Origin: Bacillota bacterium
Lineage (GTDB): Bacteria > Bacillota > Sulfobacillia > Sulfobacillales > Sulfobacillaceae
Direction of reading: 5' to 3'
Assembly: GCA_021820965.1 (NCBI GenBank)
Contig: JAKACZ010000019.1
Coordinates: 1-64,000 of the forward strand
DNA length: 64,000 bases
Within the stretch, counting starts at the first letter, position 1. Each line of letters begins with the position of its first letter. The notes under the pieces were generated by a model. That model was not told the DNA's origin. It ran no database searches and worked only from the letters and a program-made list of their open reading frames with translations. Positions 45,859-55,212 of this stretch are shown here, one piece after another. The position numbers were made by a program, and so were the translations under genes.

Positions 45859-46320
45859 CTAATGACTCTCGTTGGTGCCCAAAGCCTTTCCCAGACCTTC
45901 CAAAAATCCCACTATATAGTGGATGGCGCGGGCGACATCGGGGTCCTTCAACATTCCCATCAGTTGCCAAATCGACATCTTGTCGGCGCTCGGCGCATGG
46001 CTCGCCTCTTGCGCGCGGTTTAGCCCCTGCTTGATGGCCGTGATCATGGTCATGCCAAAGCCGTCAGGCAGTGCGCCCAGGCCCAGGGCCAGCGTCAGTC
46101 CGTTTTTGAGTCCCCGCTTGGTCGGATCGGTGTCCATTTTGTTCATCACTTTTTCGGCGATCGGCTTTCGCTGTTCTAGCAGCGCGCGCACAAATCGCAG
46201 CACCCCCGCCTCTTGCAGCACCTCAACAATGGCTTCGAGATTTTCCTCAGCAGCGTCGCCGGAACGAACGGCATTCCCCGCCGTTGCCGATTCTGGCATT
46301 TCGATGATCGGCTTAGCCAT
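45859..46320 (-). CDS. DUF1641 protein of the formate dehydrogenase locus
   Basis: The 153-residue helical protein matches the DUF1641 family, commonly found downstream of NAD-type formate dehydrogenase genes in Bacillus relatives. It reads VLQEAGVLRFVRALLEQRKPIAE in the middle and ends with a GTNESH tail. It overlaps the fdh gene by eight bases. The function is not established; an assembly or subunit role is inferred from linkage. Confidence 0.8.
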   Translation of the reverse strand: MAKPIIEMPESATAGNAVRSGDAAEENLEAIVEVLQEAGVLRFVRALLEQRKPIAEKVMNKMDTDPTKRGLKNGLTLALGLGALPDGFGMTMITAIKQGLNRAQEASHAPSADKMSIWQLMGMLKDPDVARAIHYIVGFLEGLGKALGTNESH

Positions 46321-49288
46321 GGCGCCGTTCCTCCTCGTCCGGGTTTACAGTCACTAACGGGTGGTAGTCACGGCGCTCCCATTTCTTCTCAACGCGCACG
46401 CCGGGCTGCGGGTTGCGCTTTTGATAGCGCCAATTGCGGCGCGGAAGCGGTGTTCCCGGTTCTTGCTTTAGAGGCTCTAGTTTGGCATAGGTGTGCTTGT
46501 AGCCTGGTGTTCGGGTGGTAGGGTCGAACACCTCCGGGGTTAAGCGGTTAATGGCCCCGTCGCCGGTGCTGTTCATCGGCAAGTATACTTCGCGTCCCTG
46601 CACCCTGTCTGTTATCACCACGCGCATGCGGGCCTGCCCGGAGGGCGTAATCAGACGGACCCATTGACCCTCCCTGAGGTTTCTCTCCTCGGCCAGCATC
46701 GGGGACACCTCGACAAACACGTCGGGAACCAAGCGCTTGATACCCGGCACACGATAGGTTAGGTTGCCCTCATGGAAGTGCTCCAAGAGCTGACCATTGT
46801 TGACCAAGATGTCGTATTGGCTATCCGGCACCGGTACGTCTTGGAAGGTCAAAGGCACCAGTTTAGCCTTGCCGTCAGGGTGGTTAAACCTATCCTGGTA
46901 GAGGAGCGGTGTGTCGGTACCATCCGGAGCGACCGGCCAATTGAGGCTCTTGAATCCCTCCAGCCGCTCATAGGTGACTCCGGCAAACAATGGCGCTACT
47001 TGACTGACCTCCGCCATAATCTCGGATGGATGGCGGTAGTGCCACCGCGCGCCGAGGCGATTGGCCACATCGGTGAGAATTACCCAGTCCGGCCGCGCCT
47101 CGCCTAACGGCTCAAGTGCTTGGTAAAAGCGCTGGATGCGGCGCTCGGTGTTCACAAAGGTGCCCTCTTTCTCCAACGATGGGACCGCCGGCAGAATCAC
47201 GTCGGCATATTGCGCCGTCTTGGTGAGAAAGATCTCCTGTACCACCAGGAATTCCACTTTCTGCAAAGCTTCGTGGATGTGGGAGATATTGGTGTCCACC
47301 AGCGCTGTGTCCTCACCTACGATGTATAGGCCATGCAGGCGGCCATCCAGCACAGCGTCGGCAATGTCGGTGTTGGACAATCCTGGTTTTTCGGGAATCG
47401 GCTCGCCGCCCCAGACAGCTTCGGAGCGGGCTCGTGCCTCGGGGTCACCAACTTGTTCGTAGCCGGGAAGGTACACCGGTTTGGCTCCAAAGTCACTAGC
47501 ACCCTGCACGTTGTTATGGCCCCGAAGAGGATAGCCGCCGGTTCCGGGGCGCCCGATGTTGCCGGTCAACACCAGCAAATTGGAGATTGCCAGCGACCCC
47601 TGAGCACCCTGGCCTTGCTGGGTAATCCCCATAGCCCAGAGAATGGCGACACGCGGCGCTTCATGAATCATCTCCGCGAGTTTCTTGACCGTATCCGGAG
47701 CCACACCGGTGAGCGCTTCCACTTGATTAAGCGTGTAGGGCTCTAGGGAATTGATGTATTCCTCAACTCCGGTAACATGTTGGGCGAGGAACTGGTGATC
47801 AATCCAGCCTTGGTCGGCTAGAACTTTCTGCACGCCTGCCAAGAGATACGGGTCGGATCCGCTCTTGGGGTGAATGTAGAGATCGGCACGCTCCGCCATC
47901 TCATGCCGACGGACATCAATCACCACGAGTTTCTGGCCGCGAAGCTTGTGCGCGCGCTTGACCCGGGTGGCAAACACCGGATGTGATTCGCTCGTGTTGG
48001 ATCCGATGGCAATCACCAGATCAGCTGCCTCGACATCTTTCATCGTGCCGCTGTCGGCCCCGTAACCCACCGTAGTGCGAAGCCCAAAGGTTGCCGGATC
48101 CTGACAATAGGTGGAGTCGTTGTCGATGTTATTGGTGCCAATCACCGAGCGAGCCAGCTTTTGTACGAGATATGCCTCTTCATTGGAACCCTTCGAAGAG
48201 GCGACAAACATCAAAGCAGCGGGCCCATGCTCATTGCGAATCGCCTTGAGCCGCTTTGCCACCAGGTTGAGGGCTTCGTCCCAGGTCGCCTCGCGGAATG
48301 ACGACCCCTCGCGGATCAACGGCTTAGTCAAGCGGTCGGGGCTATTGACAAAGTCCCAGCCGAACTTGCCTTTCACACAGGTCGACACACTGTTGACCGG
48401 TGCTTCCAAAGTCGGGTCAATCTTTAATATCGTGCGGCCTTTGGTCCACACGTTGAAGGAGCAGCCGACGGCGCAATAGGTGCAAACCGTCTTGGCGCGC
48501 TTGATGCGGCTGTTCCGCATTTGAGACTCGATGTCAGATAGGGTAAACACCGGTCCCATCGAGGGCTCTACTCCTTCCACCAAGTCAATCATCGGTAAGA
48601 GCGTGTCTGGTTCGATGCCGGTTAAAAAGCCCGCCTCACCCAGCATCGACTTCTCCATCAGCGCGTTGCAGGGACACACGGTGACACAGTGTCCACACGA
48701 GACACAGGATGACTCTCCTATGGGCTTATGATCGTCCCACACCACCCGCGGCCGCTCCAGACTCCAGTCGATCGAAAGCGTCTCATTAACCTCAAGGTTT
48801 TGGCAGGCCTCAACGCAGCGCCCGCACAAAATGCACTGGTTGACGTCATAGCGGTAAAAGGGATTCGTATCGTCTGTGGGAGGATATGGCTTCGGGGTAT
48901 AGGGGATGGTTTGATGTTCAATCTGTAAAAGCTCGGTGGTGTTGTGCACCACGCAGTCGCCGTTATTGTTATCGCACACGGTGCAGTACAACCGGTGATT
49001 GCCGAGGATGCGCTGCATGGCTTCGTCTTGGCGCGCCTTCACCGGCTGGGACTCAGCATCGACGTTCATGCCGTCCCGGACCTTTTCGGCGCAAGCGCGC
49101 ACATACTTCCCGTCGACTGACACAATGCAGGTGTCGCAAGTTTGGATGGGGCCCAAAACGGGCAGATAACAGACATGCGGGATGGGTATTCCCTGTTCCG
49201 CCAAGACGTCAATGAGCCGTGCACCTTCGGGCACCTCCAGGGATTTGCCCCGCACCGTCAAGATGACCGTCGCTTTGGTTTTCTCCAT
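46313..49288 (-). CDS. molybdenum/tungsten formate dehydrogenase alpha subunit
   Basis: The 991-residue protein has an N-terminal NuoG-like part: a 2Fe-2S motif (HVCYLPVLG, TCDTC), a His-Cys3 cluster (HRLYCTVCDNNNGDC), and two 4Fe-4S motifs (CILCGRCVEAC and CVSCGHCVTVCPC). A Mo-bis-MGD domain follows with CTYCAVGC and the metal-ligand cysteine in STYCQDPAT. That codon is TGT, not UGA, so it is a Cys-type enzyme. It oxidises formate. A basic C-terminal tail of about 50 residues (RRNWRYQKRNPQPG) is unusual. The ATG follows GGGAGGGACAG. Confidence 0.92.
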   Translation of the reverse strand: MEKTKATVILTVRGKSLEVPEGARLIDVLAEQGIPIPHVCYLPVLGPIQTCDTCIVSVDGKYVRACAEKVRDGMNVDAESQPVKARQDEAMQRILGNHRLYCTVCDNNNGDCVVHNTTELLQIEHQTIPYTPKPYPPTDDTNPFYRYDVNQCILCGRCVEACQNLEVNETLSIDWSLERPRVVWDDHKPIGESSCVSCGHCVTVCPCNALMEKSMLGEAGFLTGIEPDTLLPMIDLVEGVEPSMGPVFTLSDIESQMRNSRIKRAKTVCTYCAVGCSFNVWTKGRTILKIDPTLEAPVNSVSTCVKGKFGWDFVNSPDRLTKPLIREGSSFREATWDEALNLVAKRLKAIRNEHGPAALMFVASSKGSNEEAYLVQKLARSVIGTNNIDNDSTYCQDPATFGLRTTVGYGADSGTMKDVEAADLVIAIGSNTSESHPVFATRVKRAHKLRGQKLVVIDVRRHEMAERADLYIHPKSGSDPYLLAGVQKVLADQGWIDHQFLAQHVTGVEEYINSLEPYTLNQVEALTGVAPDTVKKLAEMIHEAPRVAILWAMGITQQGQGAQGSLAISNLLVLTGNIGRPGTGGYPLRGHNNVQGASDFGAKPVYLPGYEQVGDPEARARSEAVWGGEPIPEKPGLSNTDIADAVLDGRLHGLYIVGEDTALVDTNISHIHEALQKVEFLVVQEIFLTKTAQYADVILPAVPSLEKEGTFVNTERRIQRFYQALEPLGEARPDWVILTDVANRLGARWHYRHPSEIMAEVSQVAPLFAGVTYERLEGFKSLNWPVAPDGTDTPLLYQDRFNHPDGKAKLVPLTFQDVPVPDSQYDILVNNGQLLEHFHEGNLTYRVPGIKRLVPDVFVEVSPMLAEERNLREGQWVRLITPSGQARMRVVITDRVQGREVYLPMNSTGDGAINRLTPEVFDPTTRTPGYKHTYAKLEPLKQEPGTPLPRRNWRYQKRNPQPGVRVEKKWERRDYHPLVTVNPDEEERRHG

Positions 49289-51998: not shown

Positions 51999-52328
51999 TT
52001 ACGCATCGTCCGGCGACAAGAATACGTCGCCGTCTTCCACCCGCACCGGAAACACATCAATGGGGACAATGGCAGGCATTTTCACCGCCTGTCCCGTGCG
52101 AATGTCGAACTGGCCGCCGTGTCTGGGGCACGTCACGATGTATCCGTGGTATTCGCCCTCACAGAGTGAAGCCTCCGCATGCGAGCACGTATCATCAGTG
52201 GCAAAGACCACATCCTGGGCCCTATACAAGGCGATAGCACGATTATTGAGCTCTACTAAATAAGGAATGGTCGCATCAATATCCTCTAGCCGAGCCACCT
52301 TAATCCATGTTTTTGAAGCGGTCATCAT
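51999..52328 (-). CDS. Rieske-type ferredoxin
   Basis: The 109-residue protein has the Rieske 2Fe-2S motifs TCSHAEASLC (CxH) and CPRHGG (CxxH). It is similar to ferredoxins of ring-hydroxylating oxygenases rather than to membrane-anchored Rieske proteins, with no membrane segment. Its ATG lies at GGAGATTAAATG, overlapping the end of the previous gene. A Rieske gene in a formate dehydrogenase locus is unusual and may carry electrons between the dehydrogenase and another acceptor. Confidence 0.88.
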   Translation of the reverse strand: MMTASKTWIKVARLEDIDATIPYLVELNNRAIALYRAQDVVFATDDTCSHAEASLCEGEYHGYIVTCPRHGGQFDIRTGQAVKMPAIVPIDVFPVRVEDGDVFLSPDDA

Positions 52329-52704: not shown

Positions 52705-52813
52705 CGATACCGCCTCCTCAGGTGGATTGCGCGCCTACGGCTTCGAGGCCGTTTGCCGTGCCAGGCTGGCCGATTTCCTAAGGCGATGATGCCGCATCAT
52801 TCCGTCGCGTAAC

Positions 52814-52827
52814 GTGACTTACATCAC
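52814..52827. promoter_or_regulatory. CRP/FNR-type operator upstream of the formate dehydrogenase locus
   Basis: GTGACTTACATCAC lies 110 bp before the start of the first gene and matches the 16973 site in all but one base. Confidence 0.6.
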
Positions 52828-53024
52828 AGAGTGGATTTGTGGCCAATAGCAGCAAAGCGGTGGTTATCCGCTACCGTCACGCGAATTGCAAAACATGTGG
52901 TTTATATTGTCTATCCTGCGGTTAGCCTGCTAACCCCATCTTGGCCGTTGGGCTAAGAAGGGGATGCGCGGACAATGGACTGGAGCCTTGACTTTTGTAA
53001 CAATCGAGCCAAGGAGGTGTTCGC

Positions 53025-53287
53025 GTGGCCCTAGATAAATCCTTCACTGTTTCGTTTCCGAGTGATCTCGCCGAAGCCATCGAACGGTTGGTCGCGGAAC
53101 CCGAAGAATTTGTCATCGAGGCGGTGCGTCATGAAATCCACCGGCGTGACCAGCTAGCTGCGATTCGAGAGGCCGCGGGGGAGGATCACGATGAGATTCC
53201 CGACACGGTTGAGGAACAGTGGAATTTGTGCGCCGTCTTCGAGCAAACGAAGAGCGGTTCCCGCAATGGTCGACACGGATGTCCTGA
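53025..53287 (+). pseudogene. vapB: frameshifted VapB-type antitoxin
   Basis: The frame starts with GTG after AAGGAGG. It reads a ribbon-helix-helix-like SFTVSFPSDLAEAIERLVA and EEFVIEAVRHEIHRRDQL. The expected end (EFVRRLRANEERFPQW, then a TGA at 53285 overlapping the toxin start) is in another frame, so a one-base shift near 53220 breaks the gene. In the current frame it continues to 53348 and reads through unrelated sequence. Confidence 0.6.
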
Positions 53288-53345
53288 TTTGGGTACTACG
53301 AGGCAAAACCGACGCGGTCGCCTGGCTGGAGAGAGCGGCGGCCGA
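53266..53345 (+). pseudogene. vapC: truncated VapC (PIN) toxin
   Basis: MVDTDVLIWVLRGKTDAVAW is the start of a PIN-domain ribonuclease with its first catalytic aspartate (VDTDVL). After about 27 residues it runs into the minus-strand IS630 relic. No further PIN residues remain, so it is inactive. Confidence 0.65.
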
Positions 53346-53990
53346 TGATCGTCATGGGATCCTGGCTAATGTGGACGAGGAACGCGTCCGCGGCCGCAAT
53401 AATCGCCTCGACGCTGTTGAAAAAGACATGGTCAATGACAGAGCATTTCAGCCAGCCCATAAGCCTTCGATCGGATTGAGTTGGGGTCTATAGGGCGGTA
53501 AAAACATCAGCGTTAACGTGTCGCGAGGCTGCGCTAAGAACGGCTGAATGAGCTTCGCGTGGTGAATCCGGGCATTATCTAAAATCAGCACGAGGCGCTC
53601 TCCGGGATACTGGTCGATGATCTGTTGCAGAAACTTGAGGAACTCTTGGCATCCTATGGGGTGGGGTGATGGCAGAGGATCTCGCCACTTTCATCATCCA
53701 AGGTTCCTAGGAGTTTGTCACCCCAGTGCTTCCCATAGGTCGGGATCACCTTTTGCTGACCTTTCGGAAACCAGGTACGCTTGATGGCTTGGCAGTCACG
53801 AATCGTGGCTCGGGTCTCTGCCGTCGATCAAACGCTGGCGGTCCAAGAGGACGCCCTTCAACAGGCGGGGCGAGCTGCGAGAAAATTTTCCGAGATATGA
53901 TTTCTGGCAGCACCACGGAACGCCCGGGGTAGGGTGGGCGGTCGGCGACCACGGATGAGCGCCGATCAGATCCGCATGGCGGCTCGCCAG
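53345..53990 (-). pseudogene. IS630-family transposase relic
   Basis: On the minus strand one frame reads FPKGQQKVIPTYGKHWGDK and then LLGTLDDESGEILCHHP, followed by a shift, EFLKFLQQIIDQYPGERLVL, ILDNARIHHAK and FLPPYRPQLNPIEGLW. This is the DDE core of IS630 transposases with the second Asp (LDNARIHH) and the final NPIE. A stop and frameshifts break it, and the N-terminus is not recognisable. It truncates vapC. Confidence 0.8.
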
Positions 53991-54466
53991 CTGCAACATA
54001 CCAACATGACCATGGAAACATGTGGCCGCGGAGTTTAGGGGTGTCAACGGACGACATTGTACCGGGCGCTTAGACAGCCCATCGATGTAGCTATGAATAA
54101 AGCATTAACCAGGAGATGATATACCTGCGCAAATTAAGCAGTTATTGCCAGCCACAGATTGGTTTTTGGGTAGGCTCTGCAATCAACCCGGAGCCGTTGG
54201 TTCAACCTGTTTCGGCGGCGGACGATATCTACTTACGGAAGGGAGGCAAGTCGACCGACTGCACAGTGCTTTTGGATGAAGAACCCCATCGGGTCACCGT
54301 GCGCGGAACGACCAATGCCGTGGCCAAACCAGTGGTGCAGGTCCTTTCCGGGCGCCACGTTATTCAGTCGGGATCGGATCCGCGCCTACGCGGCGGAATG
54401 CGGGAAAACCCAGATCAGACCGCCGCCGGCTTAAAACGCATGGATCCGGAGACTCTGGCGGTATGG

Positions 54467-55114
54467 CTATTCGTTGACTTTGTAGTACCAGGCTTTGTAT
54501 CCTGACTCGTCGGCGCTCTGCCACCGTTTTTGCAAGGATTCCACGGTCGCAGGTGCCGGGCTCAGCGTAGGCTGGCCGGGCTGCCAATTGGCCGGGATCG
54601 CGCATCCGCCGCTAGACGTATTTTCGCGAAATGCGTCAAACACCCGCAACAGTTCATCCACGTTCCGTCCTATCGGTGCGGGATAGGTCAGGGTGGCGCG
54701 GATGGTCGATTGGGGGTCGATGAAGAACACACTACGAACCGTAGCGGTTTCGGAATCCGCGCTAATCATCCCGTATAGGCGCGCAACTTTTAGGTCCACA
54801 TCCGCAATGACCGGAAATGGCACGTCGACACCAAAGTTTGCTTTTATACTGTCGATCCACGCCAAGTGTGAATAGACCGAGTCGACCGACAACCCCAAGA
54901 GCTTGACGTCTCGTTCAGCGAATTCACTAAATCGCCTTGCCAAGGCGATGAACTCGGACGTTCAGACAGGTGTAAAGTCTGCCGGGTGAGAAAAGAGCAT
55001 CAGCCAATGACCGGCAAAATCCGAAAGGCGAACCACGCCATGGGTTGTCACCGCCTCAAATTCAGGCGCCTTATCCCCAAGGCGTAACACAGGAGCATCA
55101 GAGTCTAAAGACAT
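54467..55114 (-). CDS. selenocysteine-containing 1-Cys-type peroxiredoxin
   Basis: The reading starts at an ATG at 55114, preceded by AAGGAGGG, and runs for 215 residues if the in-frame TGA at 54964-54962 (codon 51) is read through. The context is [16 protein letters not shown]; in the Prx6/1-Cys family this position is the peroxidatic cysteine in [13 protein letters not shown]. The rest of the protein ([57 protein letters not shown]) is intact. Without recoding the product would be only 50 residues. It reduces peroxides and would be a selenoenzyme. The alternative is a single point mutation of a TGT or TGC codon. Confidence 0.8.
54920..54955 (-). promoter_or_regulatory. putative bacterial SECIS element
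   Basis: After the UGA (54962) and 12 nt, ATCGCCTT pairs perfectly with AAGGCGAT around the loop GGC (stem at 54949-54931). An outer GAGTTC pairs with GAATTC across a 5-nt 3' bulge. The loop starts 20 nt after the UGA and begins with G. Bacterial SECIS elements are known to place such a stem-loop within about 16-37 nt of the UGA with a G in the first two loop bases. Confidence 0.7.
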
Positions 55115-55212
55115 TTTCCACCCTCCTTGGCTAACCGATAAGCAGCATTCTTGATAAGCGGGTGCTAATCGCCCCGCATGCTCGCAGCATATCGGGTTTT
55201 TTCCATTTTAAC

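Follow-up and report, generated by a model that had tools for sequence, protein, structure and literature searches.

Does a peroxiredoxin gene with a UGA in the middle of its frame encode a selenoprotein, or is the UGA a damaged codon, a true stop or a codon read as some other amino acid? The question is raised by a locus in the 64,000-nucleotide stretch of DNA analysed here (the window). On the minus strand, the peroxiredoxin frame runs from an ATG at 55114 to a terminal stop codon that ends at 54467, and its sole internal stop is a TGA at codon 51 (54964–54962). This agrees with a reading made earlier from the letters alone (the sequence-only reading), which had described a 215-codon frame with a single UGA exactly at the peroxidatic position and had proposed a selenocysteine peroxiredoxin. 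The features of the gene are as follows.

54467–55114, minus strand: Prx6-type peroxiredoxin gene, 215 codons plus stop, with UGA at codon 51
54962–54964, minus strand: in-frame UGA at the peroxidatic position, putatively read as selenocysteine
55122–55127, minus strand: AGGAGG, a likely ribosome-binding site read from the sequence, 5′ of the ATG

The encoded protein consists of AhpC-TSA and 1-cysPrx_C domains (the latter PF10417, 32.5 bits against a cut-off of 21.1) and scores 249.5 with PRK13189, over the cut-off of 211. It contains the PxxxTxxU motif (P44, T48 and the UGA at 51), and none of P44, T48, R127 and H43 varies among the 15 aligned rows that have selenocysteine or cysteine at position 51. 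We take P44, T48 and R127 to be the peroxiredoxin catalytic set. The 1-cysPrx_C domain and the active-site histidine, H43, together place the enzyme in the Prx6 (1-Cys) group. With the NCBIfam PrxU model (NF040737) the protein reaches 148.7 bits, under the curated cut-off of 270, and it therefore falls outside the PrxU equivalog; the proposed selenocysteine peroxiredoxin is supported as such, with its type now specified as Prx6. The best solved match is 5ovq (Aquifex), followed by the A. pernix peroxiredoxin, with 6q5v, a Prx6-family 1-Cys enzyme, also near the top; the structure model has a mean pLDDT of 77.7. Besides the selenocysteine there is one cysteine, near the C terminus (GGCAIPANW), which is kept in five of the six proteins of the closest clade (clade 1, below). 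Mechanical ORF calling splits the gene at its UGA, and genes of this kind are thus easy to overlook or to annotate in truncated form.

Homologues of the window peroxiredoxin are widespread in the order: 39 of 42 genomes have a match at 1e-20, a near-full-length match is free of stops in 30, and in 14 a near-full-length match has TGA at the corresponding codon. Alignment of relatives at this codon, which the sequence-only reading had suggested, thus gives TGA in 14 of 42 genomes, and TGC or TGT in all 16 stop-free loci fetched. The UGA genes form clade 1 (six genes: the window gene and five at 74–80% identity) and clade 2 (eight genes at 56–59%). Among the 80 named relatives listed, the codon specifies cysteine in 79 and is TGA in the remaining one, Bacillota MAG WH4.bin11. 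Phylum-wide, 22 of 398 genomes match at 1e-55, and TGA lies inside the match in five of them, namely the window genome (G000) and four genomes of one other family; three of these four other-family genes were fetched (L229, L231 and L234), and all are of the Prx6 type with UGA at the same codon. Over the 65 codons past the UGA, dN is 0.09–0.16 and dS 1.35–2.87 (dS being near saturation), showing a frame that is open and constrained, and the codons 5′ of the UGA are as constrained as those 3′ of it.

The UGA is followed by a hairpin that may serve as the selenocysteine insertion (SECIS) element, and by a second stem that encloses it.

54931–54949, minus strand: hairpin ATCGCCTT-GGC-AAGGCGAT, 8 perfect pairs, proposed bacterial SECIS element
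54950–54955, minus strand: outer stem, 5′ arm GAGTTC, which pairs equally in cysteine homologues and is not counted as evidence
54920–54925, minus strand: outer stem, 3′ arm GAATTC, completing a 6-bp stem with one G-U

The perfect 8-bp stem and the GGC loop beginning 20 nt past the UGA were found just as previously described. In bacterial SECIS elements the apical loop lies 16–37 nt after the UGA (PMC10778597) and is small, with a G (PMC1088965); the window hairpin, with its GGC loop at 20 nt, has both properties. It is also conserved beyond the need of the protein. In the codons at Sec+5 to Sec+10, all 81 of 81 synonymous codon pairs among the six clade-1 orthologues are identical, against 677 of 1,598 elsewhere in the gene (Fisher p about 1e-29, which is only indicative because codon pairs are not independent), and of 142 windows those covering the hairpin take the first four ranks for synonymous conservation. 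The inner hairpin is thus under strong synonymous constraint. No synonymous excess at the hairpin codons was found in 12 of the 16 cysteine loci (100 of 244 pairs, against 2,740 of 6,917 elsewhere; L031, L038, L049 and L054 were left out). Each of the six clade-1 rows has the inner stem fully paired (8 of 8), and 24 other rows, the 16 cysteine rows among them, have 2–5 of 8 pairs. Covariation is absent from the six clade-1 rows, with no pair altered on both sides, because the stem is invariant.

Folding energy was considered as proof of a SECIS element and rejected, its signal being weak (z −2.47, p 0.016 against synonymous shuffles, third-lowest of 185 windows in the same gene; p = 0.076 for UGA rows versus cysteine rows; p = 0.016 to 0.41 for single clade-1 rows); the real evidence is the synonymous conservation. 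When both strands of the window are counted, 35 of 1,929 TGA trinucleotides (1.8%) precede a comparable hairpin, defined as at least 8 pairs with G-U allowed, a loop of 3–6 nt, G in the first two loop positions and a spacing of 16–37 nt. The sequence-only reading had judged the arrangement unlikely by chance; what lies far beyond chance is the conservation of the UGA and the freezing of the hairpin codons, whereas the folding energy is only weakly exceptional. The outer 6-bp stem, also part of that judgement, is present and paired in 97.2% of cells in the six clade-1 rows, but it is no evidence for a SECIS element: 11 of the 16 cysteine homologues form 6 of 6 pairs and the other five form 5 of 6. 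Since Glu-Phe is encoded by palindromic codons, this pairing comes with the protein sequence and lends no support.

Decoding of UGA as selenocysteine requires dedicated machinery, which the sequence-only reading had expected to lie outside the window. The window genome (4.63 Mb in 101 contigs, 98.84% complete, 5.58% estimated contamination) encodes selA (contig C85, 531.8 bits), selB (contig C39, 354.8 bits against a cut-off of 242.25; 626 amino acids with two SelB-specific domains), selD (contig C56, 356.4 bits) and two tRNA-Sec genes with anticodon UCA (73.8 and 72.2 bits, by ARAGORN and Rfam). The sel genes sit on contigs other than that of the window, and no tRNA gene was found within the window. 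The genome therefore has the full set expected of a selenocysteine-decoding organism, including selB and tRNA-Sec, whose absence would have told against the proposal. Among the 14 genomes with the UGA gene, selA scores over its cut-off in 13 and tRNA-Sec(UCA) is called by ARAGORN in 11. The gaps, all in draft genomes, are G024 (no tRNA-Sec match), G036 (GCA type only), G030 (a single tRNA-Sec match, truncated where the contig ends) and G010 (selA lacking).

One of the two tRNA-Sec genes (L006) matches those of G031, G033 and G035, of the same genus, over all 92 bases. The other (L005:1501–1591, contig C73) is divergent, with no score above 45 among the 13 loci it was compared with; it lies near a group II intron match and near reverse-transcriptase, transposase-like and recombinase-like ORFs. 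It could be acquired or a contaminant. A third gene (L007:1501–1593, contig C31) is Sec-like, with a long variable arm, and has the Cys anticodon GCA. The genome also has a canonical tRNA-Cys (L235), and GCA genes like L007 occur in relatives: the same anticodon is found in 11 of the 14 other second copies fetched (tRNA-Cys by ARAGORN) and in L083. L007 resembles the published selC* tRNA-Cys, which includes the GCA form and, in some cases, UCA anticodons (PMC7609411), and it is accordingly not counted as a new kind of tRNA.

How else could the UGA be explained? A cysteine codon damaged by sequencing error or in a pseudogene would fit the TGC or TGT of nearly all named relatives listed. However, 14 of the order's 42 genomes have TGA at this position, so it is not a sequencing error, and the strong purifying selection past the TGA and the selenocysteine machinery in the genome both speak against a decaying gene; we give this explanation practically no weight. 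Nor does a genuine stop, with a shorter protein of 158 amino acids restarting at TTG 54943, account well for the data, even though the mechanical ORF begins at that very codon. The fragment would be without the peroxidatic position, constraint is as strong before the UGA as after it, and the TTG sits inside the frozen hairpin, whose conservation a SECIS element explains. A restart is extremely improbable.

Slightly less remote, although still very improbable, is a suppressor tRNA that reads the UGA as cysteine or another amino acid. The likeness of the extra Sec-like tRNA, L007, to selC* tRNA-Cys, some of which carry UCA anticodons, is what speaks for it. L007, however, has the anticodon GCA; it therefore reads Cys codons and was ruled out as a reader of UGA. 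Both UCA tRNAs are tRNA-Sec by ARAGORN and Rfam, and a conserved SECIS-like hairpin follows the UGA. We thus return to selenocysteine: it is highly likely that the gene encodes a selenocysteine-containing Prx6-type peroxiredoxin, the incorporation of selenium being what we infer from the sequence.

The window gene is not the only gene of this genome with a UGA at an active site. SelD has an in-frame UGA in SKSG-U-GCKL, presumably the catalytic position of the enzyme. A second formate dehydrogenase (L208) has a UGA at the catalytic position, in SCNRT-U-HAPSVVGL; it scores 634.1 bits, short of the 666.25 set as cut-off for the family, and its match does not cover the first 50 positions of the profile. 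The window copy of formate dehydrogenase has Cys (TGT) there. Selenocysteine formate dehydrogenases have been described in all Sulfobacillus genomes (PMC4378227). A second, shorter peroxiredoxin (L003:1435–1905, minus strand, contig C52) has a UGA at its peroxidatic site. Members of its family (L179–L198) were found in 20 of the order's 42 genomes, and each has the UGA at this site; one of them, L186, is from G029, which appears to be S. acidophilus DSM 10332. A further homologue, L199, has Cys. The hairpin of this family is paired in 76 of 96 cells over 16 of 21 rows (L195–L198 and the Cys row L199 were left out), against 8–52 when slid, and one pair changes from G-C to A-U in four rows; the outermost pair is not real, because it is C-A in 10 of the 16 rows. 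The window hairpin (GGC, 20 nt from the UGA) is like those of SelD (GGA, 20 nt) and the second formate dehydrogenase (GGUCU, 18 nt), whereas the second peroxiredoxin has a hairpin that departs from this pattern (CCU, 29 nt, with no G in the loop). Because of the conservation, the selenocysteine machinery and the other UGA genes, the window gene is by all genomic evidence very probably a real selenoprotein gene, with a predicted product and a predicted selenium content.

In clade 2 (L032–L037, L039 and L040), two successive hairpins follow the UGA, and only the second is under synonymous constraint (7 of the 8 loci; L033 was left out). The first was rejected as the SECIS element of this clade, as it has no synonymous excess (48 of 100 pairs, against 1,041 of 2,379). 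The second, GCUCCUCA-GUU-UGAGGAGC in L035, has its loop 38 nt from the UGA, just beyond the 16–37-nt range, and is paired in 59 of 64 cells against 15–37 when slid (8 distinct rows). In a tree of 45 proteins, which includes 15 of the 80 named relatives and leaves out the long-branch rows L106, L117, L142 and L161, the UGA rows fall into two groups, although a single group is not rejected (p-AU 0.282). With its different and more distant hairpin, clade 2 may represent an independent origin of selenocysteine. It is conceivable, if somewhat doubtful, that Prx6-type peroxiredoxins became selenoproteins twice within the order, each time with their own SECIS element (GGC at 20 nt and GUU at 38 nt). 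If so, selenocysteine and cysteine Prx6 enzymes would stand side by side in one order, a natural experiment on the benefit of selenium in a peroxiredoxin branch with an unsettled reductant.

The peroxiredoxin gene lies near a formate dehydrogenase cluster; these genes are context, outside the recoding.

51999–52328, minus strand: Rieske protein gene, a homologue of which adjoins the UGA peroxiredoxin gene in both L028 and L029
50710–51984, minus strand: NuoF-like gene of the formate dehydrogenase cluster
46313–49288, minus strand: alpha subunit of formate dehydrogenase, whose catalytic residue is encoded by the Cys codon TGT and not by UGA

Among 12 loci examined, the UGA peroxiredoxin adjoins Rieske and NuoF-like homologues in L028 (the nearest at ~170 nt) and L029, and one such neighbour was found in L026. 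A shared transcript of the peroxiredoxin with the Rieske and NuoF-like genes is possible. In the window, about 1.8 kb (52705–54466) separates the peroxiredoxin from the cluster, against ~170 nt in L028, and three ORFs tested in this interval gave no Pfam match. Elsewhere in the window there is a group II intron match (RF02003, 2426–2589, minus strand, 57.5 bits).

By analogy with established bacterial selenocysteine decoding, SelB carrying Sec-tRNA(Sec, UCA) would bind the hairpin 20 nt past the UGA, and selenocysteine would be inserted at codon 51. The Sec51 selenolate, in an active site with P44, T48, R127 and the Prx6-type H43, would then reduce peroxide and become a selenenic acid, from which a reductant would restore the selenol. 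Speculatively, the C-terminal Cys (GGCAIPANW) might act as the resolving residue. For Prx6 enzymes, the active-site histidine and hydrosulfide as a possible reductant have been discussed, and the physiological reductant is debated (PMC12697902); that the window enzyme uses hydrosulfide is only an idea. Judging from relatives, its role is likely to be peroxide defence in an acidic, metal-rich habitat. The Sulfobacillus relatives, a bioleaching group, appear to put selenium into SelD, a formate dehydrogenase and at least two peroxiredoxins.

Our search of the open-licence literature on Sulfobacillus selenocysteine, selenoproteins and peroxiredoxin returned no report of this Prx6-type selenoprotein. 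The window genome probably represents a different genus of the family that includes Sulfobacillus thermotolerans and S. acidophilus. This family does include another peroxiredoxin described as a selenoprotein, the 'Selenocysteine-containing peroxiredoxin PrxU' of Sulfobacillus thermotolerans Kr1 (BXT84_15685, 178 amino acids; PMC7409299). In G028, which appears to be this strain, a 178-amino-acid peroxiredoxin reading (L200:952–1488) has Cys (FVCPTE) and fits BXT84_15685. As the matching reading has Cys, the name given in the paper appears to have no selenocysteine codon behind it, the match between the genes resting on protein length.

PrxU of Eubacterium acidaminophilum and the TxxU selenoprotein family have selenocysteine at the peroxidatic position of PxxxTxxU, as here (PMC13188914, PMC9312934), and share with the window gene a bacterial hairpin past the UGA. 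The TxxU family is placed under COG1225 (Bcp) (PMC9312934), and the Sargasso Sea set was reported to contain a Prx-like group of COG0450 (PMC1088965). The window protein differs from PrxU in its 1-cysPrx_C domain and in its score with the PrxU model (148.7 against a cut-off of 270). Cysteine Prx6-type (1-Cys) enzymes, such as 6q5v of Sulfolobus islandicus, the A. pernix peroxiredoxin and 5ovq of Aquifex, resemble the window protein in fold and in sequence along most of its length, and it keeps their active-site histidine; unlike them, the window gene has a selenocysteine codon in place of Cys, and a conserved hairpin. Selenocysteine is thereby placed in the Prx6 subfamily, with cysteine homologues from the same order for comparison: selenocysteine peroxiredoxins are already known in bacteria, and the window gene adds one in the Prx6 branch.
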